A stretch of DNA of 64,000 nt from Dickeya poaceiphila. Its GTDB lineage: Bacteria; Pseudomonadota; Gammaproteobacteria; Enterobacterales; Enterobacteriaceae. A program made the position numbers and the translations under genes. The notes under the pieces were generated by a model, which had not been told where the DNA came from, made no database searches, and saw only the letters and a program-made list of their open reading frames with translations. This document shows, one piece after another, positions 1,811 to 19,186 of this stretch. The DNA lies in NCBI RefSeq assembly GCF_007858975.2, contig NZ_CP042220.2:3472001-3536000 (forward strand), read 5' to 3'. How positions within the stretch are numbered: the first letter of the stretch is position 1; every line of letters begins with the position of its first letter.

Positions 1811-1868
1811 CCAGCACAGAAATCACCGTTGTCGGGCGGGCTACGGCCTGCCCATTCAAGGACACCCC

Positions 1869-2741
1869 ATGCATTTTGATTCCCGCTGGCAACGCTGGCT
1901 GCTGCTGATGCCCGCCGCCGTGCTGTTGCTGCTACTGACGCTCTATCCTATCGGCCAGATGTTGCTTTACTCCTTCAGCAAGGTGGATTACGCCGCTGCC
2001 AGCCGCAGTTGGGTGGGGCTGGAAAATTACCGCCAGCTGTTCGCCGACTGGTTCTTCACCACCAGCCTGAAAAATACCCTGCTGTTCTCGTTCGGCAGTT
2101 CGTTGCTTCAGGTGCTGCTGGGGCTGGCACTGGCGTTGTTGCTGTACCGCCATTTTCCCGGTCGCCAGTGGGTGCTGAGCCTGCTGATTTACCCGATGAT
2201 GATCTCCACGCTGGTGTGCTCGGCTATCTGGCGCGTGTGGTTTCATTACGATTTTGGTCTGCTGAACAATTGCCTGACCACACTGGGGCTAATGCCGCAG
2301 CCGTGGCTGTCCAGCCCACATCTGGCGTTGTGGTCGCTGATGCTGGTGGATATCTGGCAGTGGACGCCGATGGCTTGCCTGATAATCCTCGCCGGGTTGC
2401 AGGGCATCCCCAAAGACGTGCTGGAAGCGGCCGAGAGCGACGGCGCCAATGGCTGGAAACGGCTGTGGTACGTCACGCTGCCCTTGATCCGCCAGCCGCT
2501 GATGCTGGCGTTGCTGCTGCGCTCCATCGACACCTTCAAGCTGTTCGACAAAGTGTACGCCCTGACCGGCGGCGGCCCCGGTTATGCGACCGAAACCCTG
2601 TCGCTGTACATCTATCAGCAAGGCTTCAAGTTTTTTAATCTGGGACTCGCCAGCGCGGGGGCGGTCATCATGTTGCTGTTCGCCGCCGCCATGAGCCTTA
2701 TCTACGCCTGGCAGTTACTGCGTGGAGGGAAAACGGCATGA
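1869..2741 (+). CDS. ABC transporter permease (MalF/UgpA type)
   Basis: A 290-residue inner-membrane protein with about six transmembrane helices. The cytoplasmic EAA loop is visible around residues 185-205 (EAAESDGANGWKRLWYVTLP), the contact site for the ATPase. This is the first of the two permease subunits of a sugar-type importer. It starts 58 bases after the binding protein and its end overlaps the next permease (ATGA), showing translational coupling. The AAGGACACC sequence ahead of ATG 1869 serves as ribosome binding site. Confidence 0.92.
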   Translation: MHFDSRWQRWLLLMPAAVLLLLLTLYPIGQMLLYSFSKVDYAAASRSWVGLENYRQLFADWFFTTSLKNTLLFSFGSSLLQVLLGLALALLLYRHFPGRQWVLSLLIYPMMISTLVCSAIWRVWFHYDFGLLNNCLTTLGLMPQPWLSSPHLALWSLMLVDIWQWTPMACLIILAGLQGIPKDVLEAAESDGANGWKRLWYVTLPLIRQPLMLALLLRSIDTFKLFDKVYALTGGGPGYATETLSLYIYQQGFKFFNLGLASAGAVIMLLFAAAMSLIYAWQLLRGGKTA

Positions 2742-3565
2742 GGCTCCCTTACTGGCTGACGGCACTACGTGCCCTGGCGCTGGCTATCGCGTTACTGTTT
2801 TTCATCTTACCGATCCTGTGGATGGTAGCGGCGGCGTTTAAGTCTACCGCCGAATTCACCAGCCTTAGCAGCCCGTTCTGGCCGCAACAGTGGACGCTCA
2901 CGCACCTCAAGAGCCTGCTGGAAAACGGCGTCGTCGCACGGCTGTTTAATACCCTGTGGGTAGCGGCGGGTGCCACGGCGCTATCGCTGCTGACCGGGTT
3001 TATGGCCGCCTATACGCTGGCGCGCCACCGATTTCCGGCGCGGCTCGACAGCCTGTTCCTGCTGCTGGTGCTGTTGATCAAAATGATGCCGCCGATGGTG
3101 GTGGCCATTCCGCTGTATTCGTTGCTCAAATCGCTGCATCTGCTCAACAATCTGGCCGGGCTGATGCTGGCTTATCAGGTCTATACCCTGCCGTTTTGTA
3201 TCTGGATGCTGCTCAGTTTTATCCGCGACGTGCCGCTGTCGCTGGAAGAAGCGGCGGCGATGGACGGTGCCGGGCTGTGGCGGCGGCTGCGTTACATCGT
3301 GCTGCCGGTGTGCGCCCCCGGTCTGGTCGCTACAGCGATCTTCACCCTGATCATGGCGTGGAACGAATTTCTGTTCGCCTTGCTGTACCTGCAAACCCCT
3401 CAGCAGTTCACGCTGCCGCTGTTTATCGCCAACTTCATGACCGAAAACCAGATCTACTGGGGAGAACTGATGGGCATCGGGTTGCTGTCTTCGCTGCCGG
3501 TGCTGCTGGTGGCGGGTTTTGTTCAACGTTATTTGCTGCGCGGCTTTGCCGTCAGCCAGAAATAG
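2738..3565 (+). CDS. ABC transporter permease (MalG/UgpE type)
   Basis: A 275-residue second permease of the importer, with about six transmembrane helices and the EAA loop EEAAAMDGAGLWRRLRYIVL near residues 168-188. The ATG overlaps the stop of the preceding permease by four bases. Together with its partner it forms the transmembrane channel; the ATPase gene begins ten bases after its stop. Confidence 0.92.
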   Translation: MRLPYWLTALRALALAIALLFFILPILWMVAAAFKSTAEFTSLSSPFWPQQWTLTHLKSLLENGVVARLFNTLWVAAGATALSLLTGFMAAYTLARHRFPARLDSLFLLLVLLIKMMPPMVVAIPLYSLLKSLHLLNNLAGLMLAYQVYTLPFCIWMLLSFIRDVPLSLEEAAAMDGAGLWRRLRYIVLPVCAPGLVATAIFTLIMAWNEFLFALLYLQTPQQFTLPLFIANFMTENQIYWGELMGIGLLSSLPVLLVAGFVQRYLLRGFAVSQK

Positions 3566-3574
3566 GACTTGCGG

Positions 3575-4636
3575 ATGAGTGAATTACGATTACATCAGGT
3601 CGCCAAGCACTATGGTCGTCAGCCGGTACTGCACGGCATTGACCTGCATATCCGCCAGGGGGAATTGGTGGTGTTCGTCGGCCCATCCGGTTGCGGTAAA
3701 TCAACGCTACTGCGGACCATCGCCGGGCTGGAAGAACAAGACAGCGGCCAGATTCTGCTGGGCGGCGACGATATCTCGCGCCAGCCGCCGGGACAGCGGG
3801 AAATGGCGATGGTGTTTCAGTCTTATGCGCTTTATCCGCACATGACGGTAGCGGAAAACATGGGTTTCGCGCTGAAAATGGCGGGCGAACGGCGTCACGT
3901 GATTGACGAGAAAGTAGCGCAGGTGGCGGAAATGCTGCAACTCACACCGTTGCTGAACCGCAAACCCGGCGCGCTTTCCGGCGGCCAGCGCCAGCGAGTG
4001 GCGATTGGCCGCGCCATCGTGCGTAAACCACGCCTGTTTCTGTTTGATGAACCGCTGTCTAATCTGGACGCCAAACTCCGCACCCATACCCGTGTGCAGT
4101 TAAAAGCACTGCATCAGCAACTGGCCGCCACCATGATTTACGTCACCCACGATCAGGTGGAAGCAATGACGCTGGCCGACCGCATCGTGGTGTTGCATGA
4201 AGGCCGTATCGCACAGGTGGGAACGCCGGAAGAGCTGTATCACCAGCCTGCCAACACCTTCGTCGCCGGGTTTATCGGCACGCCGGAAATGAACTTTTTT
4301 CAGTTGTCGCCGAGGATTACCCTGTCGCCGTGGCTGCAACGGCTGGTGCGTGATGAACGTGCCGCGACTCTCGGTATTCGCCCGGATGCCTTTGAGATTG
4401 CCGACGGCGTCCCAACCTTTCAGGTTGATCTGGTGGAAAACCTGGGCGCGCAGTATCACCTGCATGGTCACCTTATCCACTCCCCCGGTATCACGCTGGT
4501 GGTAGAAAGCCGCACTACGGCGCGTATCGGCCAGGAATTAGCGTTGCAGGTAATGCCGGAACGCTGTCACTGGTTTGATGCAGAGGGTAAACGTTTACCA
4601 ACTACCGGGCAGCAGGAGAACGCCTATGGAGCTTGA
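3575..4636 (+). CDS. ABC importer ATPase (MalK/UgpC type)
   Basis: A 353-residue ATPase of the CUT1 group. Walker A GPSGCGKST is at about residues 36-44, the signature LSGGQRQR near 133, Walker B LFLFDEPLSNLD follows, and a C-terminal TOBE-like region after about residue 235 is expected for MalK relatives. Start ATG 3575 is preferred over an upstream TTG (3569) because AGGA lies seven bases before it. Its last codons overlap the hydrolase gene by 11 bases. It energises uptake through the two upstream permeases. Confidence 0.93.
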   Translation: MSELRLHQVAKHYGRQPVLHGIDLHIRQGELVVFVGPSGCGKSTLLRTIAGLEEQDSGQILLGGDDISRQPPGQREMAMVFQSYALYPHMTVAENMGFALKMAGERRHVIDEKVAQVAEMLQLTPLLNRKPGALSGGQRQRVAIGRAIVRKPRLFLFDEPLSNLDAKLRTHTRVQLKALHQQLAATMIYVTHDQVEAMTLADRIVVLHEGRIAQVGTPEELYHQPANTFVAGFIGTPEMNFFQLSPRITLSPWLQRLVRDERAATLGIRPDAFEIADGVPTFQVDLVENLGAQYHLHGHLIHSPGITLVVESRTTARIGQELALQVMPERCHWFDAEGKRLPTTGQQENAYGA

Positions 4637-5393
4637 TATTCTCGGCAGCGGTGAGGCCTACGACAGCCAACGGGTCAACGCCGCAATACGGGTCAGCGAG
4701 CGCGGGTTCCAGTTGCTGGTGGATTGCGGTCCGACCGTGCCGCAAGCACTGTGGCAACGCCAGAGCGCACCGGACGACCTCAACGCCATCTACCTGACCC
4801 ACGCGCACCCCGACCACGCACTCGGCCTGACGACCTGGCTTAACTGGTGCGAATCCTGCGGACGCACCGCACCGCTGACGATTATCGCACCGCGTCAGCA
4901 ACTGCCGCAGTTGCAGCATCTGGCGGATTTCGCCTTCTGGCCCACAGCCAAACCACTGTTTACCCTGCACTGGCAAGACAGCGAGAGCCTGAGCGAACTA
5001 GGCCCGTGGCGTTGTCAGACCGCACCGACCCGTCACTCAGTGCCCAACCGTTCACTGTGGCTCAGCAGCGCACAGGGTTCGCTGTTCTACAGCGGCGACG
5101 GTCAATTGACGCCTGCGGGCGCCGCCCTGCTGGCGCAGGCGGATCTGGCGCTGGTGGAGTGTTTTTCACCGCAGTCAGCGGACAACCCTTACCACGGTAA
5201 CTGGCCGCAGGTACAAACACTGATGCGTAAACCGGGCGCGCCGTTGGGCCTGTACCACGTACAACAGTCGCAAAAAGCGGCACTGCGACAAATTATCGCT
5301 GGCTCGTCCGGCGTATTTCTGCCGGAACAGGGCGACCGGGCACAGTGCCGCGATGGCTACTGGCAGCTAATCAAGGGACCATGGCATGAATAA
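4626..5393 (+). CDS. MBL-fold metallo-hydrolase (RNase Z / PhnP-like)
   Basis: A 255-residue metallo-beta-lactamase-fold protein. The metal-binding motif HAHPDH is at residues 59-64, preceded by LLVDCGP, with a late SGDG motif (about residue 156) and a following VECF segment, as in RNase Z/PhnP phosphodiesterase relatives. No signal peptide, so it acts in the cytoplasm. Start ATG 4626 lies inside the end of the ATPase gene, and its own end overlaps the LacI gene by 8 bases. This tight coupling suggests that it processes the imported compound, perhaps a phosphodiester or cyclic ester; that is inference. Confidence 0.82.
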   Translation: MELDILGSGEAYDSQRVNAAIRVSERGFQLLVDCGPTVPQALWQRQSAPDDLNAIYLTHAHPDHALGLTTWLNWCESCGRTAPLTIIAPRQQLPQLQHLADFAFWPTAKPLFTLHWQDSESLSELGPWRCQTAPTRHSVPNRSLWLSSAQGSLFYSGDGQLTPAGAALLAQADLALVECFSPQSADNPYHGNWPQVQTLMRKPGAPLGLYHVQQSQKAALRQIIAGSSGVFLPEQGDRAQCRDGYWQLIKGPWHE

Positions 5394-6387
5394 GACGCGC
5401 ATCACCTCGATTGACGTCGCCCGCTACGCCGGCGTTTCACCCTCAGCGGTGTCACGCACCTATTCCGCGCCAAACAAGGTCAGCCAGGCAACCCGTTCGA
5501 AAGTGCTGGCGGCGGCGGATGCGCTGGGCTATCGCCCGAATGCACTAGCACGGGCGCTGGTCAATTCCAGGCGGCAAGGCTCCGGTATCGTGGCGGTGGT
5601 GATGGGCGAGTTCGACAACCCGTTCCAGCCCTGGTTGTTCCATCTGCTGACGCAGGCTCTGCAACAACACGGTCTGGTGCCGATGCTGGTCAGCGTCACC
5701 GAACACGATGACATTCGTGCCCGGCTACAACAGGCGCTGTCGTGGCAGGTGGAAGCGGCGATCATTTCCGCCGGTAGTCTGTCACGGGAGACCACCGAGC
5801 GCTGTCTGGAGCTGTCGCTGCCGATGGTGTTGATGGGCCGCGAGGATCAGCGTGAAACCGTCACGGCGGTGCTGTCCGACAACCGGCTGGCGGGCGAACT
5901 GGCAGCCGACCACCTGATGTCACAGGGGCTGACCCGGCTGGCGTATATCGCGGGTCGTCGGGACGGACAGGCATCACTGGAACGGCTGGCTGGTTTTCGC
6001 CAGCGTCTGCTCAGCCGTGGTCTGCCGGAACCGATTGTGGCCGATAATCCGGATTATGCTTACCACAGCGGCTACCGCGCCATGTGCTGGTTACGGCAAC
6101 AGCACCCGGCGGTGGAAGGCGTGTTTTGCGCCTGTGATGCATTGGCCTTTGGCGCACTGGATGCGCTCAGGTTAAACGACGGCCCCGTCTGTAACGTGCC
6201 AGTCTGTAAAGTGGTAGGTTGCGACGATACGCCACAGGCCGCCTGGGAAGGTTACCGCTTAACCACGGTGCGTCAGCCGGTGGAACAGTTGGTAGAGCAC
6301 GTGATCCGCCATCTGCAACGGGGGCTGAGCGGCGAAGCACAACACGGCGACACCGTTCGCATTAAGCCAACGCTTATCGTCCGTTAG
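5386..6387 (+). CDS. LacI-family transcriptional regulator
   Basis: A 333-residue regulator with an N-terminal LacI helix-turn-helix (about residues 7-30, DVARYAGVSPSAVSRTYS) and the hinge sequence YRPNALARAL, followed by a periplasmic-binding-protein-like effector domain. It is the last gene of the ABC transporter operon and overlaps the hydrolase gene by 8 bases, so it is made with the genes it probably represses and would sense the imported ligand or its breakdown product. A converging LysR gene follows after 58 bases. Confidence 0.9.
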   Translation: MNKTRITSIDVARYAGVSPSAVSRTYSAPNKVSQATRSKVLAAADALGYRPNALARALVNSRRQGSGIVAVVMGEFDNPFQPWLFHLLTQALQQHGLVPMLVSVTEHDDIRARLQQALSWQVEAAIISAGSLSRETTERCLELSLPMVLMGREDQRETVTAVLSDNRLAGELAADHLMSQGLTRLAYIAGRRDGQASLERLAGFRQRLLSRGLPEPIVADNPDYAYHSGYRAMCWLRQQHPAVEGVFCACDALAFGALDALRLNDGPVCNVPVCKVVGCDDTPQAAWEGYRLTTVRQPVEQLVEHVIRHLQRGLSGEAQHGDTVRIKPTLIVR

Positions 6388-6393
6388 GTTAAC

Positions 6394-6424
6394 GGTTATC
6401 GGCGCTCGTCGTCGCCCGATAACC
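6394..6424. terminator. Hairpin between convergent lacI-type and lysR-type genes
   Basis: A nine-base inverted repeat (6394-6402 with 6416-6424) lies between the stops of two converging genes. No good T tract on either side, so it may act as a weak bidirectional terminator or only as an mRNA 3' hairpin. Confidence 0.5.
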
Positions 6425-6445
6425 ATATTCCCTTGCCATGCACCT

Positions 6446-7348
6446 TTACTCACGCAACATGGGGTGATTCCGCTCCATGAAGTCCAGAAATCGACGCACC
6501 ACCGGAATACCCGCGCTACGTTTGAGATAACTGACGGCAAAGGTGCGGGTAATCGGCGTTGCCACCGGACGAATCACAATATCGTAGCCCTTAAGGCTGG
6601 TCGCCACCGAGGTACACAGAAACACCACGCCGCCGTGGTGCATCACCAGATCCATGATGATGTCGAGGTTGCTGCACTCACGAAAGCTGGTTTCTTCAAG
6701 CCCGGCGCGGCTGAATGCTGCCGATACCGCCGCATGTTCGCCGGTCCCCTTCTGCGGCACAATCGGCCTTTCCTGTGCCAGTTGAGTCAACGTCAGGCTG
6801 GGGTGATCCGCCAGCGGATGGTTGGCCGCCATCACCGCAACCAGATTCTCGTCCAGAAAAATGGTATGACTGAACAGCGGGTCCTGCAGATAGTCATCAA
6901 ACGGCGTAGAGAGCGACACATGAATCTCAGCGTTTCTGACCTTTTCCAACAGGTCACTGCTGACGCCATCGATAAAAGATAACTCGATATTCGGATGCTG
7001 TTTTTGAAATGACGTGAAGACATCATAGTATTTCAGCCGGTTGAAGATGGGAATCACCCCCACCATCAGCGCCCCATCCTGACTCTCCTCGTACGACTGC
7101 ACAAATTGCTCAACGTCATAATACTCCCGAATCAGCGGCTTGATTTTTTCGTCAAATGCTTCGCCAAATGGCGTTAACGCAAATTGACGGGTGGTACGAT
7201 TAATCAACTTCCGTTCCAGCTCCTGTTCCAGCCGGGATATTTCCTGAGAAAGAAACGCCTGAGAGATATTGAGTGCTTTGGCGGCACGGGTAAAACTCCC
7301 TTTTCGCACCAGCTCATGGTAATAAAGTGCTCGCTTTATACTGATCAT
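6446..7348 (-). CDS. LysR-family transcriptional regulator
   Basis: A 300-residue LysR-type regulator. The winged helix-turn-helix occupies about residues 15-40 (SFTRAAKALNISQAFLSQEI) and the rest is the usual two-lobed effector-binding domain. It is transcribed away from the secreted esterase gene at 7540, and an 8+8 base inverted repeat sits in the shared upstream region, so autoregulation and control of the esterase are likely. The effector is unknown. Confidence 0.9.
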   Translation of the reverse strand: MISIKRALYYHELVRKGSFTRAAKALNISQAFLSQEISRLEQELERKLINRTTRQFALTPFGEAFDEKIKPLIREYYDVEQFVQSYEESQDGALMVGVIPIFNRLKYYDVFTSFQKQHPNIELSFIDGVSSDLLEKVRNAEIHVSLSTPFDDYLQDPLFSHTIFLDENLVAVMAANHPLADHPSLTLTQLAQERPIVPQKGTGEHAAVSAAFSRAGLEETSFRECSNLDIIMDLVMHHGGVVFLCTSVATSLKGYDIVIRPVATPITRTFAVSYLKRSAGIPVVRRFLDFMERNHPMLRE

Positions 7349-7403
7349 AATTATTTTTATTTATAACCTTATCGAATATTAATTATATGAATTTGTTAAA
7401 ATA

Positions 7404-7427
7404 CAAATGTGAGTTCAAGCACATTTG
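7404..7427. promoter_or_regulatory. Inverted repeat, candidate LysR operator
   Basis: CAAATGTG and its exact inverse CACATTTG are separated by 8 bases in the AT-rich gap between the divergent LysR and esterase genes. Position and symmetry suit a LysR-type binding site; binding is inferred only. Confidence 0.5.
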
Positions 7428-7539
7428 CATTAATCTCAGCCATGGTAGCCTGCCCGCTGGTTTTTCCCTCATTCAGCTATCTATTAGTAAAGTTGTTCAA
7501 GAAACAATAATTGGATAATTATTTTTTAAGGAATATTTC

Positions 7540-8514
7540 ATGCGCACCCCACCGCTCAAGATGATACTGTTATCCTCCGTGATGATCGCCGGAGCCTCCC
7601 AGATTACCAACACCATGGCAGCAGACACTATCCACGAACTGACGATAACCCCGCGCCAACCCTCGGTTAAACTGATTTCCGATGTGGTTTACGCTCAGGT
7701 GCCAATGCGCGGCTACCCCAATGTCGCATTGAAAATGGACATCCTGCAACCGGAAATGAAATCACCACAGCCTGCGGTTCTGTTTATCACCGGCGGCGGC
7801 TTCATTAACGCCAATAAAGACAACTACATCCAGCAACGGCTGAAACTGGCGGAAGCGGGTTACGTGGTCGCCAGCATGGAATACCGCGTGGCGCCGACCG
7901 TCATGTTCCCCGCCCCGCTGGAAGATGTAAAATCCGCCATTCGCTACCTGCGCGCTAATGCAGGCAAATTCGGCATCGACGCGGCGCATGTGGCGGTATT
8001 CGGTTCTTCCGCCGGTGGCTATCTGGCGGCATTCGCCGGTACCAGCAACGGCAACAAGCAGTTTGACCGCGGCGAACACCTCGACCAGAGCAGCCAGGTA
8101 CAGGCAGTGATCGACTTCTACGGCCTGTCGGACCTGACCCGCGTCGGTGAAGGTTTCCCGGATAAGGTGGTGCAGAAACACGCCTCGCCGTCCTCAACCG
8201 AGGCGATTTGGGTCAACGGCACCGCGGTGTTCGATGAAGGCGGCCCGATTACCCGCTTCCCGGAAAAAACCGCCGCCGCTAACCCCATCAACTATATCAG
8301 CAAGAACACGCCGCCATTTTTGATCATGCACGGCAGCGCCGATACGGTGGTTTCACCCCATCAGACCGAGATCCTGCACAAGGCGCTGATAGCCCACGGC
8401 ATCGACAGTACCTACTACATGGTGAAAGGCGCAGAGCATGGTGGCATTTACTGGCTGCAACCAGAAATCATGCAGAAAGTCATCCAGTTTTTGGATCGCC
8501 AGCTGAAGCCATAA
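7540..8514 (+). CDS. Secreted alpha/beta-hydrolase (esterase/lipase, HSL/BD-FAE-like)
   Basis: A 324-residue protein with a signal peptide (hydrophobic residues about 8-27, cleavage near TMA-AD). The oxyanion-hole motif GGGF is at about residues 84-87, the nucleophile elbow GSSAG near 155-159, a candidate acid in HGSADTVV near 265-270 and the catalytic His in GAEHGG near 300, giving the complete triad of the hormone-sensitive-lipase/feruloyl-esterase-like group. It would act in the periplasm or outside on short-chain or plant-derived esters. Start ATG 7540 follows TAAGGAATATTTC. The divergent LysR gene is the likely regulator. Confidence 0.88.
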   Translation: MRTPPLKMILLSSVMIAGASQITNTMAADTIHELTITPRQPSVKLISDVVYAQVPMRGYPNVALKMDILQPEMKSPQPAVLFITGGGFINANKDNYIQQRLKLAEAGYVVASMEYRVAPTVMFPAPLEDVKSAIRYLRANAGKFGIDAAHVAVFGSSAGGYLAAFAGTSNGNKQFDRGEHLDQSSQVQAVIDFYGLSDLTRVGEGFPDKVVQKHASPSSTEAIWVNGTAVFDEGGPITRFPEKTAAANPINYISKNTPPFLIMHGSADTVVSPHQTEILHKALIAHGIDSTYYMVKGAEHGGIYWLQPEIMQKVIQFLDRQLKP

Positions 8515-8565
8515 TCGGCTGATAGTGATTAATCGGCTAAGAGTCATTAATCGGCTGAGAGTCAT
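8512..8565 (+). repeat. Three tandem 18-bp repeats over the esterase stop codon
   Basis: Three copies of an 18-base unit beginning TAATCGGCT (8512-8529, 8530-8547, 8548-8565) with two or three mismatches. The first unit begins with the TAA stop of the esterase gene, so the array looks like slippage duplication of the gene end. Confidence 0.85.
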
Positions 8566-8573
8566 TGTGCTGA

Positions 8574-8597
8574 AACGCCTCTAACGAGGCGTTTTTT
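8574..8597 (+). terminator. Rho-independent terminator of the esterase gene
   Basis: Eight-base stem (8574-8581 with 8586-8593), TAAC loop, followed by a run of T. The remaining 440 bases up to the ferredoxin-like gene at 9038 are very AT-rich and show no credible gene; they presumably hold the promoter of the 9038-14102 cluster. Confidence 0.85.
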
Positions 8598-9037
8598 ATT
8601 CTTCGCTTTTTCTGTTTCGACGGGAATAACGTACCGCGCACGTTAATTATTGCGCTACATCATTTTTATTTATTTCAGCGACGGCGCGCCTTTATTACAT
8701 AAATCAAAAACACCCCACAAACGACAAAAAAGAACAATTAAATAACAATAAAAATAAAAAAATACGACAATAACAATACCACCATATCGATTATCGTATT
8801 TTGCTATTATTTTTATCCCAATATACAAAAAATGAAATGTGAAGCGTGCCACACATCCTACCAGGAACGCATGTTTCAATTATTCCACCAACATATTTTA
8901 TTTTCCGACACGCTGACCTTTTCATTATTTACCGTACTCATTCACCACTAATGAGTCAGAAAATAAAAAAAATAGATTTATTGCTGAACAGATGTCGGCT
9001 ACGCCATACCGATTTTTGATTTCTGAAAGGTTATTTT

Positions 9038-9736
9038 ATGGAAAATTATACCCGACGCCGGTTTATTGCCATTATGGGCAGTACGCTGGCCGTTTCCGGC
9101 AGCGCTTTACCAGTCCTCGCACAGGAAGCAGCAACGCCTTCCGTCGGCCCACGCCCCGTCAAATTCGGCATACTACACAATGAACTACGCTGTATCGGCT
9201 GCAAAGCCTGCATGACCGCCTGCCGTAAAACCAATCAGGTACCGGAGGGCGTCACGCGGCTGGACATCATACAAACCGTTGATATCCCGGCCACCGATAC
9301 CACCAAACCGATAAAACAGTTCTTTCGTCAGTCCTGCCAGCACTGCGATAACCCGCCCTGTGTCTCGGTCTGCCCGACCGGCGCCTCATTTAAAGACGCA
9401 CTGACCGGTATTGTGGATGTCAATGACAAACGTTGCGTCGGCTGCCGTTACTGCATCGCCGCGTGTCCATACCATGTGCGCTTTATCAACCCGGTAACCA
9501 ATACTGCAGACAAGTGCAATTTTTGCCGGGAAACCAATCTAGCGGCAGGCAAGAAACCGGCCTGTGTCGAGATCTGCCCGACCAAGGCGCTGGTGTTCGG
9601 CGATCTTAACGATCCGGAAAGCGATATCTCGAAAATGATCAAAAGTAATCCTATCTATCGCAGCAAAGTCTATCTGGGCACCGGCCCCAACCTCTACCGC
9701 ATCCCCGGTAAATACGGAGAGAGCGACCATGCATGA
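9038..9736 (+). CDS. Tat-exported 4Fe-4S ferredoxin-like electron carrier (NrfC/DmsB type)
   Basis: A 232-residue iron-sulfur protein. The N-terminus carries a twin-arginine motif (TRRRFIAIMG) and a hydrophobic stretch ending near ALPVLAQEA, so the folded protein is exported to the periplasm. Cysteine clusters CIGCKACMTAC, CQHCDNPPCVSVCP, CVGCRYCIAACP and CNFC...CVEICP supply the 16 ligands for four [4Fe-4S] centres, as in NrfC and the beta subunits of molybdoenzymes. It overlaps the NrfD-like gene by 8 bases. Role by family: passing electrons from a quinol-oxidising membrane subunit to a periplasmic reductase. AAGG lies upstream of ATG 9038. Confidence 0.92.
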   Translation: MENYTRRRFIAIMGSTLAVSGSALPVLAQEAATPSVGPRPVKFGILHNELRCIGCKACMTACRKTNQVPEGVTRLDIIQTVDIPATDTTKPIKQFFRQSCQHCDNPPCVSVCPTGASFKDALTGIVDVNDKRCVGCRYCIAACPYHVRFINPVTNTADKCNFCRETNLAAGKKPACVEICPTKALVFGDLNDPESDISKMIKSNPIYRSKVYLGTGPNLYRIPGKYGESDHA

Positions 9737-10685
9737 TGCCTTTCACTTTCACTCGCTGGTATGGGACTGGCCCATCGCCGTCTATCTGCTGCTGGTGGGG
9801 ATTTCCTCCGGAATGATGGTGTTAACGCTGCTGTTTCGCCGCTATCTGCCTGCGGAAAATCAGCACCCCAACCGGTTGATTACCGCCACGGCAATCGTCG
9901 CCCCGCTGTCAGTGATAGTCGGGCTGGTGATCCTGATATTTCACCTCGCCCGCCCTGTCACTTTCTGGTATTTGATGTTTTTCTATAATCCTCATTCCAT
10001 CATGTCGCTGGGGGTGATGCTGTTTCAGGTATATATGCTGGTGATGTTCCTGTGGATTGCCAGCCTGTATCAGCAACCGTTGCTGGCCTGGAGCGAACGC
10101 CATTTACCGGGTGCGTTGCACGGTTTACTGAATCGCATAATCGCGCTGGTGACCCGCAGTCTGCGTCCGCTGGAGAATGTATTGCTAGTGCTGGCGCTGC
10201 TGCTTGGTTGCTATACCGGCTTTCTGCTCTCTGCACTGAAATCTTTCCCGCTACTGAATAATCCAGTGCTGCCGGTACTGTTTTTGGTGTCCGGCGTGAC
10301 CTCCGGCATCGCGGTACTGATGCTGGCCAGCGCATCGGCGCACAGTCAGCGCGATTGTCCTCACACCCTGCATCTGCTGCACAAACTGGAAAAACCGGTC
10401 GCGTTGGTCGAACTGTTCCTGCTGTTCGCCTTCTTTATCGGCCTGATGCTGGGCGGTGGACAGAAAGCGGTGGCAGCGCAGGTGGCACTGAGCGGATTCT
10501 GGGGCGGGGTGTTCTGGATAGGTATTATCGGCATCGGCATGTTGGTGCCGCTGGCGGCAGGTAGCCTGCCCACCCTACAGCGACATGTGCGGTTTGCGCC
10601 GCGAATTACCGCTGGCCTGACGCTGCTGGGTGTATTCCTGCTGCGGCTGTTCGTGCTGTACGCCGGACAGATGACGGTAGCCTGA
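9729..10685 (+). CDS. NrfD/PsrC-like membrane quinol dehydrogenase subunit
   Basis: A 318-residue polytopic inner-membrane protein with eight or nine hydrophobic segments, of the NrfD/PsrC type that exchanges electrons between menaquinol and an attached periplasmic iron-sulfur subunit. The ATG lies inside the end of the ferredoxin gene. No haem-binding motif is visible, as expected for this family. Together with the upstream gene it makes a complete NrfCD-like module, but no NrfA or molybdoenzyme catalytic gene follows; the downstream flavoproteins are the likely terminal acceptors. Confidence 0.88.
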   Translation: MHDAFHFHSLVWDWPIAVYLLLVGISSGMMVLTLLFRRYLPAENQHPNRLITATAIVAPLSVIVGLVILIFHLARPVTFWYLMFFYNPHSIMSLGVMLFQVYMLVMFLWIASLYQQPLLAWSERHLPGALHGLLNRIIALVTRSLRPLENVLLVLALLLGCYTGFLLSALKSFPLLNNPVLPVLFLVSGVTSGIAVLMLASASAHSQRDCPHTLHLLHKLEKPVALVELFLLFAFFIGLMLGGGQKAVAAQVALSGFWGGVFWIGIIGIGMLVPLAAGSLPTLQRHVRFAPRITAGLTLLGVFLLRLFVLYAGQMTVA

Positions 10686-10687
10686 CC

Positions 10688-12061
10688 ATGACCGGCCCTC
10701 GCGCACTCTTCTGGCTGGCATCGGTGGCGTTCTTCATGCAAGCGCTGGACACCACCATGCTGTATGTCGCCGTACCGGCGATAGCACGCTCGCTGCACCA
10801 GCCAGTGCTGCGTATGGAGCCTATCGTTATGGCTTACATCATCACCGTCGTGGCCTTTACCCCGATCAACAGCTGGCTGAGCCAGCATTTGGGAGAGCGA
10901 CGCACCTGTCTGGCTGCGCTGACTATCTTCACCGGCGGCGCACTACTGTGCTTTCATGCCGACTCCGCTCTTCACCTTGGTCTGGGGCGTTTTATTCAGG
11001 GAGCCGGCGGCGCGTTACTGCTGCCGGTGATCCGCACACAAGTACTGCGATATACCCCCGCCGATACCCGGCTGTCATTCCTCAACCGCATGACGCTGCT
11101 CGGCATGTTCGGCACCCTGACCGGACCGTTACTGGGTAGCCTGCTGACTGACTGGTTATCATGGCGAGCTATCTTTATCGCGCCGGTTCCGCTGGCGCTA
11201 CTGTGCCTGTGGCTGGCATGGCACACCCTGCCGACGGATGCTCGCGTCCGTACCTGCCGGATTTCAATGCGCAGCCTGCTGCCACTGATCGGCATTCTGC
11301 TGACAGTCACGCTGCTGCTGGTGGCCGCGCCGCGGCACCTGCTGTCGATACCGGTTATCGCGCTTCTGGGTCTGGCCGGCACCCTTTGCACCCTGTTCTA
11401 CCTGCGCAGCGATTTACCGGGACGCGAAGCCCTGCTGCCGGTTTCCCTGTTCAGTATCCGTTCCTTTTATGTCGGCGTATGGGGCGGCGTACTTACCCGG
11501 CTGCTGCTGGCCTCGCTGCCGGTGGTGATGTCGTTGGTGATCCAAACCTCGCTGGGCCTGCCCCCTGCCATCGCCGGTTTCATCATGCTGATGTTTTCCA
11601 CCGGCGCCCTGCTGGCCAAGCTAATGTTTGAAGCGCTGGTCCGCTGGCTGGGTTACCGCAATTTGCTGATTTACGGCACGTTGCTGGCTTCCGCGCAGGT
11701 ACTGCTGCTCGGTCTGGCTATCCAGCACCATTTACTGCCGGTGATTGGCGTCTGTGCTGTCGGCATCGGCGTATTGACTGCGCTGCTGCACTCGGCGGAA
11801 AGCACACTGGCTTGCTGTCATTTGTGCAGCGACACCTACAACAGCGGCAATAACATCATGATTCTCAGTCAGTTGATTGCCGTCATGCTCAGCATGGCGC
11901 TGACGTTCCCGGCGTTACGCCTGTTTTCTCAACTCGAACCGCTGCTGAACATCAACCATTTCAGCCTGCTGCTGTTACTGCTCGGAACCGGATTACCGCT
12001 GAGTTGCCTGTTGTTTCGTCACCTCAGCCATGAAGAAGGAAAAACGCTGCTGGCACCCTAG
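10688..12061 (+). CDS. MFS transporter, DHA2/MdtD-like
   Basis: A 457-residue transporter with 13-14 predicted membrane helices. The N-terminus MQALDTTMLYVAVPAIA is the motif of helix 1 of DHA2 drug:H+ antiporters (D-x-T-x-x-x-V-A-x-P), and GRFIQGAGGALLLPVIR resembles motif C/B regions. It begins two bases after the NrfD-like stop, so it is in the same transcript as the electron-transfer genes. In this position it may move the substrate or product of the periplasmic reductase across the membrane rather than act as a drug pump; that is inference. Confidence 0.85.
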   Translation: MTGPRALFWLASVAFFMQALDTTMLYVAVPAIARSLHQPVLRMEPIVMAYIITVVAFTPINSWLSQHLGERRTCLAALTIFTGGALLCFHADSALHLGLGRFIQGAGGALLLPVIRTQVLRYTPADTRLSFLNRMTLLGMFGTLTGPLLGSLLTDWLSWRAIFIAPVPLALLCLWLAWHTLPTDARVRTCRISMRSLLPLIGILLTVTLLLVAAPRHLLSIPVIALLGLAGTLCTLFYLRSDLPGREALLPVSLFSIRSFYVGVWGGVLTRLLLASLPVVMSLVIQTSLGLPPAIAGFIMLMFSTGALLAKLMFEALVRWLGYRNLLIYGTLLASAQVLLLGLAIQHHLLPVIGVCAVGIGVLTALLHSAESTLACCHLCSDTYNSGNNIMILSQLIAVMLSMALTFPALRLFSQLEPLLNINHFSLLLLLLGTGLPLSCLLFRHLSHEEGKTLLAP

Positions 12062-12117
12062 CCCGGTGCGTTTTGCCGTTTATTGATGATGTCAACCACA
12101 CAGAGTGAATGCACGTT

Positions 12118-12468
12118 ATGAAAAAAAGCTCCATCAAATTATTAGGTTGTCTGTTGCTGGTCGCCGGGGCGGCGATTGCCGAAGACGCAGGTCAGTTCAA
12201 AGCCGGAACTTACTCGGCCACCGGGCAGGGCATCGGCGGTGACGTGACAGTCACGCTGGATGTCGATGCCACAGGCGTGGTGCAGAAAGCCACTATCGAT
12301 GCGCCCAACGAAACCCCGGAAGTGGGCGGGGAAGCCGCTAAAGAGCTGGCTAAGACCATGACGGAGAAAAAGACTATCAACGTCGATGGCGTTTCCGGCG
12401 CCACCATGACCAGCGGTGCAGTACATGAGGCGTCTCAGGCGGCGTACGCCAAAGCTAAAGCGAAATGA
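12118..12468 (+). CDS. Periplasmic FMN-binding domain protein (covalent flavin carrier)
   Basis: A 116-residue exported protein: signal peptide (residues 1-20, ending AIA-ED) followed by a single FMN-bind domain. DGVSGATMTSGAV near residues 86-98 contains the D-x2-SGAT motif in which ApbE attaches FMN to the Thr. Such domains carry electrons from quinol dehydrogenases to flavocytochrome-like reductases. An in-frame ATG at 12109 is nearer to AGAG than is usual; ATG 12118 is preferred but not certain. It stands just upstream of a FAD reductase that lacks such a domain, suggesting a split version of the two-domain UrdA/FrdA-like enzymes. Confidence 0.87.
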   Translation: MKKSSIKLLGCLLLVAGAAIAEDAGQFKAGTYSATGQGIGGDVTVTLDVDATGVVQKATIDAPNETPEVGGEAAKELAKTMTEKKTINVDGVSGATMTSGAVHEASQAAYAKAKAK

Positions 12469-12530
12469 ATACCGGACGACGCGCTGGTTTTTGGCGCGTC
12501 ATTCCACGCGTAAAATAAAAGGAAAATAAT

Positions 12531-14102
12531 ATGGTTCAATACCGAAAAAAACTCCTTGCGGCTTTGTGCCTCTCGGTGCTGGGAATTACGTCTGCTCAGG
12601 CATCAGGACAGGCCGAACCTGCTGCCGAACCCGCTAAAAGCGCTGAGCCGGCCAAACCGGTCGAGCTTCCTAAAAGTGCTGACGTGGTCGTGATCGGCGC
12701 AGGCGCTGCAGGCACCGCCGCTACCATGGCGGCAGCCGAGAAAGGCGCCAGCGTGGTGTTGCTGGAAAAACAACCCGCAGTCGGCGGCACCGGCAATTTT
12801 GCAGAAGGTATCTTCGCGGCCAACAGCTCGATGCAGAAACGCCAGGGCATCGTGGTTACGCCAGACATGGCCTTCAAGACCATCATGGAATACAGCCACT
12901 GGATGGCCAACCCGTATGTGGTGCGCACCTTCGTGAATCGCTCTGCCGACACCATCGAGTGGGTGAAATCCAAAGGCATCAAGTTTGAATACATCGGCCC
13001 CGGCGGACCGGGCGGAATGCTGACCTGGCACGTTATCGACGGTCCCGGCCACGGTCGCTACCTGATCAAAACCTTTCATGAGCAGTTCAAAAACATGAAG
13101 GTCACCACGCTGGTGAAAACCGCCGGTAAAGATCTGGTGATGAAAGATGGCAAAATTACCGGCGTAATCGCTGAAGGCAGCGACGGCAAACCGTTCCAGA
13201 TCGACACCAAAGCGGTGATCGTCGCCACCGGCGGCTACGCCAACAACAAAGAGATGCTGCAAAAATATGTCGCTATGCCCGACACCATCATGGTCGGCAA
13301 CATCGGTAAAGACGGCGACGGCATCAAAATGGCATGGAAAGCCGGTGCCAAGGAAGAAGGCATGGGCGTGGTGCAGTCTTACCGTCCCGGCCTGCCGGAT
13401 TATGCACCCAACTCCCAGATGCTGGCTGCGGCTCGTCAGCCGTACCTGTGGGTGGACAAAACCGGACGCCGCTTCACCGATGAGTCCATCGTCATCATTT
13501 GGCCGCACGCAGGTAACGCACTGGCTAAGGCTGGCGGCGTGATGTATTCCATCTTTGACGACGATACCCGCAAACACGTAGTCAATGATGGTATCGATGT
13601 ACCTATCGGCGAATGGGTTATCGCTAATACCAAACTGGTGAAATTTGATGACGAGTTCGCCAAAGAGAGCCAGAAAAACCGTGGTTTTGTCTTCAAAAGC
13701 AACAGTCTTGACGACCTGGCTAAACAGATGGGTATCGACCCGGCAGTGCTGAAACGCACAGTTGAGGACAACAACCGCTACGCAGCCCAGAAACGCGACG
13801 ACGTCTTCAACAAGAACATGGATTATTTGCGTCCGGTGAAAACCGGTCCGTTCTATGCCGTGAAGATGATGCCTGCGGCGCTCGGTACGCTCGGCGGCGT
13901 GAAGATTAACGAGAAAATGGAAGCTGTCAGTCCGAACGGCAGCCCGGTGCCAGGCCTGTATGTAACCGGCAACGATGCCGCCGGTATGTACGGCGACACC
14001 TATGACCTGCTGCTGGGTGGCGGTACGTTCGGCTTTGCGCTCAACTCTGGCCGCATGGCTGGCGAAAACGCCCTCGAATACCTCCACTTCACCGCCAAGT
14101 AA
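12531..14102 (+). CDS. Periplasmic FAD-dependent reductase (flavocytochrome c fumarate/urocanate-reductase-like)
   Basis: A 523-residue flavoprotein with a signal peptide (residues 1-24), an Ala/Pro-rich linker (about 25-48) and an FAD-binding start VVVIGAGAAGTAATMAA (about 51-67). ATGGYANN and the C-terminal GLYVTGNDAAG segment are typical of the fumarate reductase/succinate dehydrogenase flavoprotein family of soluble periplasmic reductases. No CxxCH haem site and no FMN domain are present, so it must receive electrons from partner proteins, presumably the FMN carrier 62 bases upstream. The NRLGGN substrate motif of true fumarate reductases is replaced by GGGTFGFALNSGR, so the acceptor is probably not fumarate itself. 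AAGGAAAA precedes ATG 12531. Confidence 0.88.
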   Translation: MVQYRKKLLAALCLSVLGITSAQASGQAEPAAEPAKSAEPAKPVELPKSADVVVIGAGAAGTAATMAAAEKGASVVLLEKQPAVGGTGNFAEGIFAANSSMQKRQGIVVTPDMAFKTIMEYSHWMANPYVVRTFVNRSADTIEWVKSKGIKFEYIGPGGPGGMLTWHVIDGPGHGRYLIKTFHEQFKNMKVTTLVKTAGKDLVMKDGKITGVIAEGSDGKPFQIDTKAVIVATGGYANNKEMLQKYVAMPDTIMVGNIGKDGDGIKMAWKAGAKEEGMGVVQSYRPGLPDYAPNSQMLAAARQPYLWVDKTGRRFTDESIVIIWPHAGNALAKAGGVMYSIFDDDTRKHVVNDGIDVPIGEWVIANTKLVKFDDEFAKESQKNRGFVFKSNSLDDLAKQMGIDPAVLKRTVEDNNRYAAQKRDDVFNKNMDYLRPVKTGPFYAVKMMPAALGTLGGVKINEKMEAVSPNGSPVPGLYVTGNDAAGMYGDTYDLLLGGGTFGFALNSGRMAGENALEYLHFTAK

Positions 14103-14111
14103 TGCCTTTCG

Positions 14112-14130
14112 TCCCCCACGCTGTGGGGGA
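14112..14130 (+). terminator. Hairpin terminator after the FAD reductase
   Basis: Eight-base stem (14112-14119 with 14123-14130) with a 3-base loop, followed by CTTTC. The stability is high but the T tract is short. Confidence 0.65.
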
Positions 14131-14184
14131 CTTTCACACCTCACGAAACGTCTTCACACTTTACGAGTCTTCACACTTTACGAA
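14131..14184. repeat. Tandem 17-bp repeats between the reductase and alkB
   Basis: Two near-identical 17-base units (TCTTCACACTTTACGA + G/A; 14151-14167 and 14168-14184), with a weaker third copy before them (14131-14147). The last unit reaches into the end of alkB (stop at 14171 on the minus strand). Confidence 0.75.
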
Positions 14185-14824
14185 ACGTCAAATTAAAGCG
14201 CACTTCATCCGACATTCCCGCCGGCAGCGGCCCGCGTTTAAGCGGCAAAATGGCGTGGTAATACAGTCGGGACGGACCACCCCACACCACCACATCGCCG
14301 TGCGTCAGCGCCAGCCGCTGGCATGGGTCACTGCGTTTCCTCCCGCCAAACAGAAATACTGCACCTAACCCCAGTGAGACTGAGACAATCGGCTGGCGTA
14401 AGTCCTGCTCGTCTTTGTCCTGATGCAACGACAGTTTGGCACCCACCGCGTAACGATTAATCAGGCAGGCATCTGGCGAAAAGCCGGGGTATCCGGCGGC
14501 ACTGGCCGCCGCCTGCGACAGTTGCAAAAAGCAGGCTGGCATAGCAGGCCACGGCTGGCCGCTCCGCGGGTCTTGCGTACTGTAGCGGTACCCCTGCTCG
14601 TCGCTCACCCAACCCCGCGGCCCGCAATTGCTCATCGCCACCGACATGGTATGTCCGCCCGGCGTCACCATGTGGCGAAACGGCGCACGTTGCGTCACCA
14701 TTTCCAGCGCGGCCAGCAATTCACCGGCCTGTTGCCAGGCAAAGCCTCGCAGCAACATCGCACCGGGTGCCAGCGTTTCATTCCGGCGTTCCGGCGGCTC
14801 ATCGGCAAACAGTTCGAAATTCAT
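14171..14824 (-). CDS. alkB: Alpha-ketoglutarate-dependent DNA dealkylase AlkB
   Basis: A 217-residue Fe(II)/2-oxoglutarate dioxygenase of normal AlkB length. The iron ligands H-x-D are in LSLHQDKDE, the distal His in RLYYHAILP, and the 2-oxoglutarate arginines in the C-terminal RFNLTFRKV. NRYAVGAKLSLHQDKDE is the AlkB signature region. It oxidatively removes 1-methyladenine and 3-methylcytosine lesions. It is divergent from an AlkA-like glycosylase gene 110 bases away, pairing direct reversal with base excision of alkyl damage. The end is overlapped by 17-bp tandem repeats. Confidence 0.95.
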   Translation of the reverse strand: MNFELFADEPPERRNETLAPGAMLLRGFAWQQAGELLAALEMVTQRAPFRHMVTPGGHTMSVAMSNCGPRGWVSDEQGYRYSTQDPRSGQPWPAMPACFLQLSQAAASAAGYPGFSPDACLINRYAVGAKLSLHQDKDEQDLRQPIVSVSLGLGAVFLFGGRKRSDPCQRLALTHGDVVVWGGPSRLYYHAILPLKRGPLPAGMSDEVRFNLTFRKV

Positions 14825-17124: not shown

Positions 17125-17542
17125 ATATCGGTCAGCCCAATGTCATTGAGCTGACAATAAACCGGTATTTAATGGAAAACTACCTGTCATGCCTCGCACT
17201 TAATTAATTTAAATAAATGATTTAATATGCAGGGTGCCAGAGGAATTGTTGCCAATAGCGACGCTGGGTTGCCGCCTGAGATATATTTTCGACAAAAACA
17301 TGACGGAGATAAAAATAATGTGACTTGTCAGCGTGGTGCTACCTGTCATAAAGCCATAGTATGTGAGGTGGTATCCCTCAAGGGGCGCGGTACTGGCGCA
17401 CGTTAAGGAATATCACCCAACGTTTATTGCTTTTGTCGCCGAGCCAGAGACGATTGACACAACAATAAGACCGACACAAAAGCCTGAACGGAAAATAAGA
17501 CCCGATAAATCACTCAATTATGCAGCTGCAAGTGAGAAGAAA
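17125..17542 (+). promoter_or_regulatory. Upstream region of the fumarase gene
   Basis: These 418 bases between the LysR gene and fumarase hold no credible gene. The fumarase frame remains open back to a possible start at 17363, but the extra residues are unlike the family. The promoter is presumably here; no specific site is convincing. Confidence 0.4.
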
Positions 17543-19186
17543 ATGTCGAATAAACCGTTTTATTACCAAGAGCCGTTTCCATTAGCGAAAGATAAAACCG
17601 AATATCGTTTAATCAGCAGCGACTTTGTTTCCGTCAGCCAGTTTGAAGGCCAGGATATTCTCAAAGTTGACCCGCAAGGGCTAACGCTGTTGGCCCAGCA
17701 GGCATTCCACGATGCCTCTTTCCTGCTGCGCCCTTCCCACCAGCAACAGGTTGCCGATATTCTGCACGACCCACAAGCCAGCGAAAACGACCGTTATGTC
17801 GCCCTGCAATTTCTGCGTAACTCCGAAATCGCCGCCAAAGGCATCCTGCCCACCTGTCAGGATACCGGCACCGCCATCATCGTCGGCAAAAAAGGCCAAC
17901 GTGTGTGGACCGGCGGCAACGATGCCGAAGCGCTGTCGCGCGGGGTATACAACACCTTTATCGAAGACAACCTGCGCTATTCACAGAATGCCGCATTGGA
18001 TATGTACAAAGAGGTCAACACCGGCACCAACCTGCCTGCGCAGATAGACCTCTACAGCACCGAAGGCGATGAATATAAATTCCTGTTCGTCACCAAAGGC
18101 GGCGGTTCCGCCAACAAGACCTATCTGTATCAGGAAACCAAGGCGCTGTTGTCACCGGGCAAACTGAAAAACTATCTGGTGGAGAAAATGCGTACGCTGG
18201 GTACCGCAGCCTGCCCGCCGTACCATATTGCCTTCGTTATCGGCGGCACCTCGGCAGAAACCACCCTGAAAACCGTTAAGCTGGCCTCCACTCGCTACTA
18301 TGACGAACTGCCGACCGAAGGTAATGAGCACGGCCAGGCATTCCGTGATGTAGCGCTGGAGCAGGAACTGCTGGAAGAAGCCCGTAATTTAGGGCTAGGC
18401 GCCCAGTTCGGCGGCAAATATTTCGCCCACGATGTGCGGGTGATCCGTCTGCCACGCCACGGCGCTTCCTGTCCGGTCGGCATGGGCGTGTCCTGCTCGG
18501 CGGACCGCAATATCAAAGCCAAGATCAACCGTCAGGGTATCTGGCTGGAACAGTTGGAAACCAATCCCGGCAAATACATTCCGGAACACCTGCGTCATGC
18601 AGGCGAAGGCGAGGTGGTGCGCATCGACCTGAACCGCCCAATGGCGGATATCCTCAAAACGCTGTCGCAGTATCCGGTTTCCACCCGCTTGTCACTTAAC
18701 GGCACCATCATCGTGGCGCGCGATATTGCCCACGCCAAACTGAAGGAACTGCTGGATAACGGCGGCGAACTGCCGCAATACGTGAAAGATCATCCGATCT
18801 ACTACGCGGGTCCCGCCAAAACGCCGGAAGGTTACGCCTCTGGTTCGCTGGGCCCCACCACTGCGGGCCGCATGGACTCCTATGTTGACCTGCTGCAATC
18901 CCACGGTGGCAGCATGATCATGTTGGCCAAAGGCAACCGCAGCCAACAGGTCACCGACGCCTGCAAAAAACACGGCGGCTTCTATCTCGGCAGCATCGGC
19001 GGCCCGGCAGCGATTCTGGCGCAGAATAGCATCAAGAGCCTGGAATGTGTGGAATACCCGGAACTGGGTATGGAAGCTATCTGGAAAATCGAAGTGGAAG
19101 ACTTCCCGGCCTTCATCCTGGTGGATGACAAAGGCAACGACTTCTTCCAGGTGATCCAGTCTCAGAAATGCACCCGCTGCGGCTAA
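17543..19186 (+). CDS. fumA: Class I fumarate hydratase
   Basis: A 547-residue iron-sulfur fumarase, matching the 548 residues of E. coli FumA. It interconverts fumarate and malate in the TCA cycle using an oxygen-sensitive [4Fe-4S] cluster; one ligand is visible in [10 protein letters not shown], others in [10 protein letters not shown] and the final region. Start ATG 17543 ([12 protein letters not shown]) aligns with FumA/FumB; a longer frame from 17363 is rejected. GAGAAG lies upstream. A strong terminator ends the gene, so it is a single-gene unit. Confidence 0.95.

Follow-up and report, generated by a model that had tools for sequence, protein, structure and literature searches.

The window examined here comprises 64,000 nucleotides of the single-contig, 4.32-Mb genome of Dickeya poaceiphila (RefSeq assembly GCF_007858975.2, contig NZ_CP042220.2, positions 3,472,001 to 3,536,000) and harbors, at positions 9038 to 14102, five forward-strand genes whose products, according to the open reading frame list and Pfam, are an NrfC-like ferredoxin, an NrfD-like membrane protein, a major facilitator superfamily (MFS) transporter, a stand-alone FMN_bind protein, and an exported FAD_binding_2 protein (Table 1). 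These five codirectional genes and their domains, including the SGAT motif of the FMN protein, are as described in a first-pass annotation of this DNA, which had also portrayed the FAD protein as free of heme and FMN domains; a Pfam scan of the latter indeed revealed neither a heme domain nor FMN_bind, and the protein contains one cysteine in total. The NrfC and NrfD genes overlap by 8 bp and a gap of 2 bp separates the NrfD gene from the MFS gene, a spacing which suggests that the five genes may form one operon.

Table 1. Features of the five-gene cluster and its upstream flank (positions refer to the window)
Feature	Position	Strand	Particulars
LysR regulator	6446..7348	-	Divergent from esterase gene; domain scan and locus comparison
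BD-FAE-type esterase (feruloyl/acetylxylan esterase family), exported	7540..8514	+	PF20434, 2.7e-55
Terminator-like hairpin	8572..8595	+	3' of esterase gene, separating it from the operon; weak on its own
NrfC-like ferredoxin	9038..9736	+	232 aa; twin-arginine start TRRRFIA; 16 Cys; Fer4_11, 2.9e-25
NrfD-like membrane quinol dehydrogenase	9729..10685	+	318 aa; PF03916 (NrfD), 1e-84
MFS transporter	10688..12061	+	457 aa; MFS_1, 7.5e-28
Stand-alone exported FMN_bind protein	12109..12468	+	119 aa; PF04205, 2.4e-12; SGAT motif in DGVSGATMTS
Exported FAD_binding_2 reductase	12531..14102	+	523 aa; FAD_binding_2, 1.2e-63; Sec-type N terminus judged by eye

The NrfC-like protein, which is expected to be exported by the Tat pathway and to hold four 4Fe-4S clusters, scored 329.8 bits against the NrfC equivalog TIGR03149, under its cutoff of 377.6. 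The NrfD-like protein, with approximately nine hydrophobic segments by a rough hydropathy count, passed the nitrite reductase NrfD equivalog TIGR03148 (411.7 bits; cutoff, 347.6), and a sequence search of solved structures returned no match for it at an E value of 0.1. For the FMN_bind gene, an alternative start at an ATG nine bases further in is possible; the nearest solved chain to its product is 8p2b (E value, 4.7e-8), and an alignment-free structure model was of poor quality (mean pLDDT, 60.7). UrdA is among the top structural matches of the FAD protein. ApbE is encoded twice in the genome, one copy passing the ApbE equivalog and possessing a lipoprotein-like start. A 931-residue OYE-FMN_bind-FAD reductase, which retains the fumarate-type active-site residues, is encoded between two ApbE genes at G000:C1:3714000-3726000 (L091).

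It is proposed that NrfD would oxidize quinol, presumably menaquinol, in the membrane and that NrfC would pass the electrons to the small periplasmic FMN protein, to whose SGAT threonine FMN would, judging from the motif, be attached by ApbE. The reduced FMN protein would then reduce the FAD of its partner reductase, by which a C=C double bond would be hydrogenated. This route, from quinol via NrfD, NrfC, and the FMN protein to the FAD enzyme, appears likely from the gene content and its conservation. The best explanation of the whole, to which a probability of about 0.5 is assigned, is a heme-free periplasmic chain end whose acceptor would be a plant-derived, neutral phenolic alkene, 4-vinylphenol or 4-vinylguaiacol, the products of phenolic acid decarboxylase (PAD), being the first choice.

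A profile search of named genomes yielded 121 relatives, from which 80 loci were kept. All five genes were found together at 16 of these loci, which argues that the gene set is not due to chance; all 16 are from Enterobacterales, namely, Dickeya (two), Pectobacterium (eight), Symbiopectobacterium (two), a genome labelled Serratia marcescens (one), Edaphovirga cremea (two), and Brenneria (one). Frames are broken at L020 and L047, the MFS gene is split at L018, and the FAD gene comes first at L045. The [ST]GA[ST] motif was present in 15 of the 16 aligned FMN_bind relatives, the exception being that of L020, which is truncated by the frame break. Proteins of D. zeae and D. oryzae show 96% identity to the FAD protein, and one of Musicola paradisiaca shows 95%. 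The FAD protein is uncommon: at an E value of 1e-50, 8 of the 149 genomes in the family sample gave a match (five at 79% identity or above).

The MFS gene was surveyed across 392 genomes of the GTDB family to which the window belongs, 59 of which gave a match at 1e-60 and 22 of which reached at least 235 bits. At all 22 loci of these close relatives (L096 to L117), which include the window itself and several of which share genomes with the 16 five-gene loci, NrfC and NrfD genes are directly adjacent, and at 19 an FMN_bind domain is next (18 stand-alone and one fused), the exceptions being L102, L104, and L115; for the FMN_bind protein of L107, the motif search pattern gave no match. Conservation of the neighbors, the lack of which had been named beforehand as a refutation, was thus evident in both surveys. 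Weaker matches, which are MdtD-like, came from 37 genomes; none of the eight loci examined from these has NrfC or NrfD, and the lineage was found in none of 368 other Gammaproteobacteria sampled. Among curated families, the MFS protein scored highest with exporters, MdtD and EmrB among them, all of these scores being under cutoff. It is closest to the MdtD/DHA2 branch, whose cutoffs it does not reach, and represents a lineage of its own, which accompanies NrfCD also at loci that have a different FAD protein or none; it is accordingly no more than a candidate carrier of the substrate, the role given to it in the first-pass annotation.

The genome of the window has neither NrfA (PF02335) nor CcmE (PF03100), other maturation systems not having been searched for, and its sole NrfD is the one encoded in this cluster. 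Its single PF01578 hit adjoins an ffh-like gene, as ypjD/corE does, an assignment not confirmed by a family match (NCBIfam gave none at 1e-25). Without NrfA and CcmE, and with only this NrfD, a path free of c-type heme is the natural reading, and the original idea of a reductase in the periplasm, with FMN and FAD on separate proteins and NrfCD as the donor, draws support from these absences as well as from the conserved neighbors. Among 16 genomes tested, all of which have NrfD, nine carry NrfA, ten carry CcmE, and six (that of the window included) lack both. NrfCD might instead be a remnant of a cytochrome c nitrite reductase, lying beside unrelated flavoproteins, as could be argued from the NrfD equivalog that is passed and from some Brenneria loci with NrfC-NrfD-MFS but no FMN or FAD genes. 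This suggestion is, however, scarcely credible, as each of the nine NrfA-bearing genomes has at least one further NrfD match, NrfD is also present in the six genomes devoid of NrfA and CcmE, and an FMN-FAD fusion occurs beside NrfCD; it was rejected on the lack of NrfA and CcmE and the single NrfD in the genome of the window. A comparison of D. dadantii with P. atrosepticum reports that D. dadantii lacks Nrf, as well as nap together with part of ccm (PMC3349551).

The direction of electron flow in the proposed chain could also be reversed, the FAD protein then acting as a dehydrogenase from which electrons would reach NrfD and the quinone pool via FMN and NrfC. NrfD-type proteins can run in both directions, and structural alignment of 3-ketosteroid and cyclohexanone dehydrogenases with the FAD protein gave a root mean square deviation of 3.2 to 4.0, compared to 5.1 to 7.2 for FccA and 4.4 to 6.8 for UrdA, albeit with lower Z. 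This counts against a reductase, although a reversed chain is considered most improbable.

That separate FMN and FAD proteins would work together with NrfCD finds good evidence in an Acerihabitans genome, in which NrfC-NrfD-MFS genes stand at two loci beside a gene for a protein of 637 or 639 residues with an N-terminal FMN_bind domain followed by FAD_binding_2. A tree of FAD proteins was computed from 80 rows, comprising 75 of the 80 loci and five others, with the broken or partial L020, L047, L086, L060, and L076 left out. The window protein falls in a clade of 16 rows (support, 100/99), two of which, FAD paralogues from Acerihabitans (L022) and Brenneria (L023), have no NrfCD beside them. 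Near L022, an OprB-type porin and an enoyl-CoA-hydratase-like gene were observed, L023 having a gene with a start similar to that of the latter. In 16 of the 17 rows of the sister clade (100/99; joint node, 94/81, just under the strict mark), a small 3- to 4-heme cytochrome gene lies beside the FAD gene, a cytochrome which would have the role that FMN would play in the window cluster. Across all 80 loci, such a cytochrome gene adjoins the FAD gene instead at 23, among which are loci of Geomonas, other Geobacteraceae, Deferribacterales, Desulfo-groups, and Shewanella mangrovi.

The FAD protein of the second Edaphovirga cluster (L045) belongs to another clade, which it shares with Sutterellaceae (100/99). 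The Acerihabitans fusion proteins are placed in a third part of the tree, together with proteins resembling VprA (96/90, a grouping that carries long-branch warnings). With partners in three parts of the tree, the NrfC-NrfD-MFS module appears to have been combined with FAD proteins of three lineages or more. Conversely, the Brenneria strain hezel4-2-4 (L093, 6935-9972) has NrfC-NrfD-MFS without FMN or FAD genes at the same chromosomal site; L102 and L104 likewise have only NrfC-NrfD-MFS at this site, and L105 still has FMN and a short FAD piece, so that these loci seem to reflect a stepwise loss of the FMN and FAD genes. A joint interpretation, speculative and at present doubtful, would regard NrfC-NrfD-MFS-FMN as a quinol-oxidizing, heme-free plug-in donor of Enterobacteriaceae and a sixth class beside the five discussed below, serving at least three FAD lineages, those of the window clade, of Edaphovirga L045, and of the Acerihabitans fusions. 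Its function in Dickeya would be to support the anaerobic respiration of 4-vinylphenols derived from plant hydroxycinnamates, and the MFS protein would serve as a general component, such as an exporter of flavin for cofactor loading in the periplasm, and not as a carrier of the substrate.

The composition of the active site bears on the substrate of the FAD enzyme. With FccA numbers counted from the HMMER alignment, the fumarate residues H365, R402, and H504 of FccA align with Y284, I322, and L451 of the window protein, and a fourth such residue, R544, faces L494 (HMMER) or Y491 (MAFFT), with no arginine in either alignment. The fumarate-reductase-like protein of the same genome has histidine at columns 284 and 451 and arginine at columns 322 and 491, and reads GSNRIGGN where the window protein has GDTYDLLLGGG, so that the reported absence of the fumarate reductase motif was right in substance. 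The best curated match of the FAD protein is the vinylphenol reductase VprA (NF053717; 408.1 bits, the next match scoring 234). Two proteins of Lactobacillus sp. LL6 pass the cutoff of this family (789.7 and 682.5 bits), and the former shares W144, T165, W166, H167, E318, N329, D489, and Y491 with the window protein.

Because the carboxylate-clamp residues are replaced and the best curated match is VprA, whose substrate has no carboxylate, the substrate is, on balance, predicted to lack a carboxylate, and the unsaturated acid that had been proposed as acceptor on first inspection is not sustained on the same two grounds. The same electron path might nevertheless end on an unsaturated carboxylic acid such as ferulate, caffeate, or cinnamate; this is unlikely in view of the replaced equivalents of H365, R402, H504, and R544 and of the constancy of Y491 and L451 (78 and 73 of 79 aligned rows, respectively), the fumarate-reductase-like protein of the genome having retained its histidines and arginines.

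Vinylphenols in particular are a tentative choice, at slightly less than even odds. PAD is present in the genome of the window. In Shewanella mangrovi, genes for a cytochrome c3, an FAD reductase, an OprD porin, and a member of the tannase/feruloyl-esterase family lie on one strand (L068, 7530-12717); the PAD of this genome, like the BD-FAE esterase upstream of the window operon, is counted in favor of a phenolic substrate. The path could also lead to another neutral aromatic alkene or enone, such as a monolignol, a hydroxycinnamate ester or aldehyde, or a stilbene, which would suit an active site without an acid clamp, the esterases nearby in the window and in Shewanella mangrovi, and the several cluster genomes without PAD. 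No such curated family is found in the 25 best of 87 matches, in which VprA ranks first, and this end point is thought improbable to a degree similar to that of the acids.

Several observations weigh against a chain ending on vinylphenols. The window protein does not reach the VprA cutoff of 600 bits, its Y284/R285 correspond to F/G in the two LL6 proteins that do, and VprA is outside the window clade in the tree; moreover, R285 and R314 remain and could hold one carboxylate. PAD was matched in 9 of the 14 cluster genomes (seven full length and two partial) and not in the other five, nor in G014, which belongs to another genus and encodes an FAD protein of 95% identity; relative to the family sample, PAD is weakly enriched (Fisher P of 0.03, uncorrected for relatedness). 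In the surroundings, the esterase gene is absent from 3 of the 16 five-gene loci and is separated from the operon by the terminator-like hairpin, and the 523 bp before the window NrfC gene hold no FNR-like site at up to one mismatch. PAD as an obligatory partner was rejected, being missing or partial in the genomes named above.

The esterase gene, present at 13 of the 16 five-gene loci (broken at two of the 13), is possibly accessory to the five-gene set, and its membership of the operon is doubtful in view of the hairpin, which comes from a scan with 9 sites found and 7.5 expected in shuffles, and of its absence from three loci. The LysR regulator possibly controls the esterase gene, the operon, or both. 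FNR-like sites with up to one mismatch were found approximately 220 to 395 bp before NrfC in 7 of 15 relatives (L009, L011 to L014, L018, and L019), five of which are Pectobacterium and not independent; the two Dickeya loci (L007 and L008) have none within one mismatch, and FNR control of the window operon was set aside on the lack of such a site. Genes with similar starts were observed near the FAD gene in L045 (Edaphovirga, 6872-7570; Crp/Fnr-type), L053 ("Serratia," 9775-10494), L048 (Sutterella, 9531-10247), and L062 (Parasutterella, 11963-12655). A promoter scan gave one site, on the opposite strand, which is fewer than in shuffles, and Rfam gave no match within 8300-14300. Further upstream, the genes at 530-5393 appear by eye to encode an ABC uptake system of the sugar type along with an MBL-fold-like protein; a LacI gene comes next, and the region looks ordinary. 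Downstream, at 17363-19186, lies the gene for the class I fumarase FumA, which is kept in Dickeya and Pectobacterium, in most loci beside AlkB/AlkA, and looks like shared synteny rather than a functional link.

Within the literature searched, NrfCD as the donor, a constant MFS protein, and a VprA-like active site in an enzyme that would be exported and linked to quinol appear new. If the proposed chain is correct, NrfCD would join the known routes from the quinone pool to periplasmic flavoproteins, which would explain why NrfD is kept in genomes without NrfA and CcmE and would render its curated nitrite reductase label misleading. In tissue poor in oxygen, soft-rot and other plant-associated bacteria may then use plant phenolics in respiration and also detoxify them, and vinylphenol respiration would link the ethylphenols of food spoilage with anaerobic respiration, fields which have so far been apart.

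The donors of flavinylation-linked systems have been grouped into NapH-, MsrQ-, PepSY-, DsbD-, and NQR/RNF-like classes (Meheust 2021; PMC8238504), and the window resembles the systems presented there in that a membrane electron donor is encoded next to the gene for an ApbE substrate. None of these five classes was detected among the eight genes scanned (5386-14102), NrfD does not occur in the available main text of that article, and the combination of NrfD with FMN-binding and flavinylation terms was not found in openly licensed PMC literature. As the same source counts 189 clusters in which a fumarate-reductase-like gene has a separate FMN-binding gene nearby, and describes the exchange of heme for flavin, the split architecture that had been called undescribed is only partly new; the new parts appear to be the NrfCD donor and the substrate class. 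FrdA of Listeria and UrdA of Shewanella share with the window the FAD_binding_2 fold and an FMN_bind carrier but combine both in one protein, whereas the window has separate genes, replaced substrate residues, and an NrfCD donor. The FAD subunits of flavocytochrome c3 (FccA) and of two-gene tetraheme/FAD systems have the same fold; FccA, however, carries its heme domain on the same protein, while the window cluster encodes an FMN protein and no heme protein. The nrfABCDEFG nitrite reductase cluster matches the window in the homology and order of NrfC and NrfD, with NrfB/NrfA replaced by the FMN and FAD proteins in the latter. Of the curated families, that of VprA of Lactiplantibacillus plantarum (NF053717) gives the best match, which spans almost the whole FAD domain; compared via the two LL6 proteins rather than L. 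plantarum VprA itself, VprA-type proteins share W166, H167, E318, N329, D489, and Y491 with the window protein, differ from it at 284 and 285, and likewise have no arginine at the places of R402 and R544. The LL6 proteins have no signal peptide and no NrfCD or FMN_bind gene in the surrounding 17 kb, whereas the window protein is predicted to be exported and to be served by a dedicated donor.

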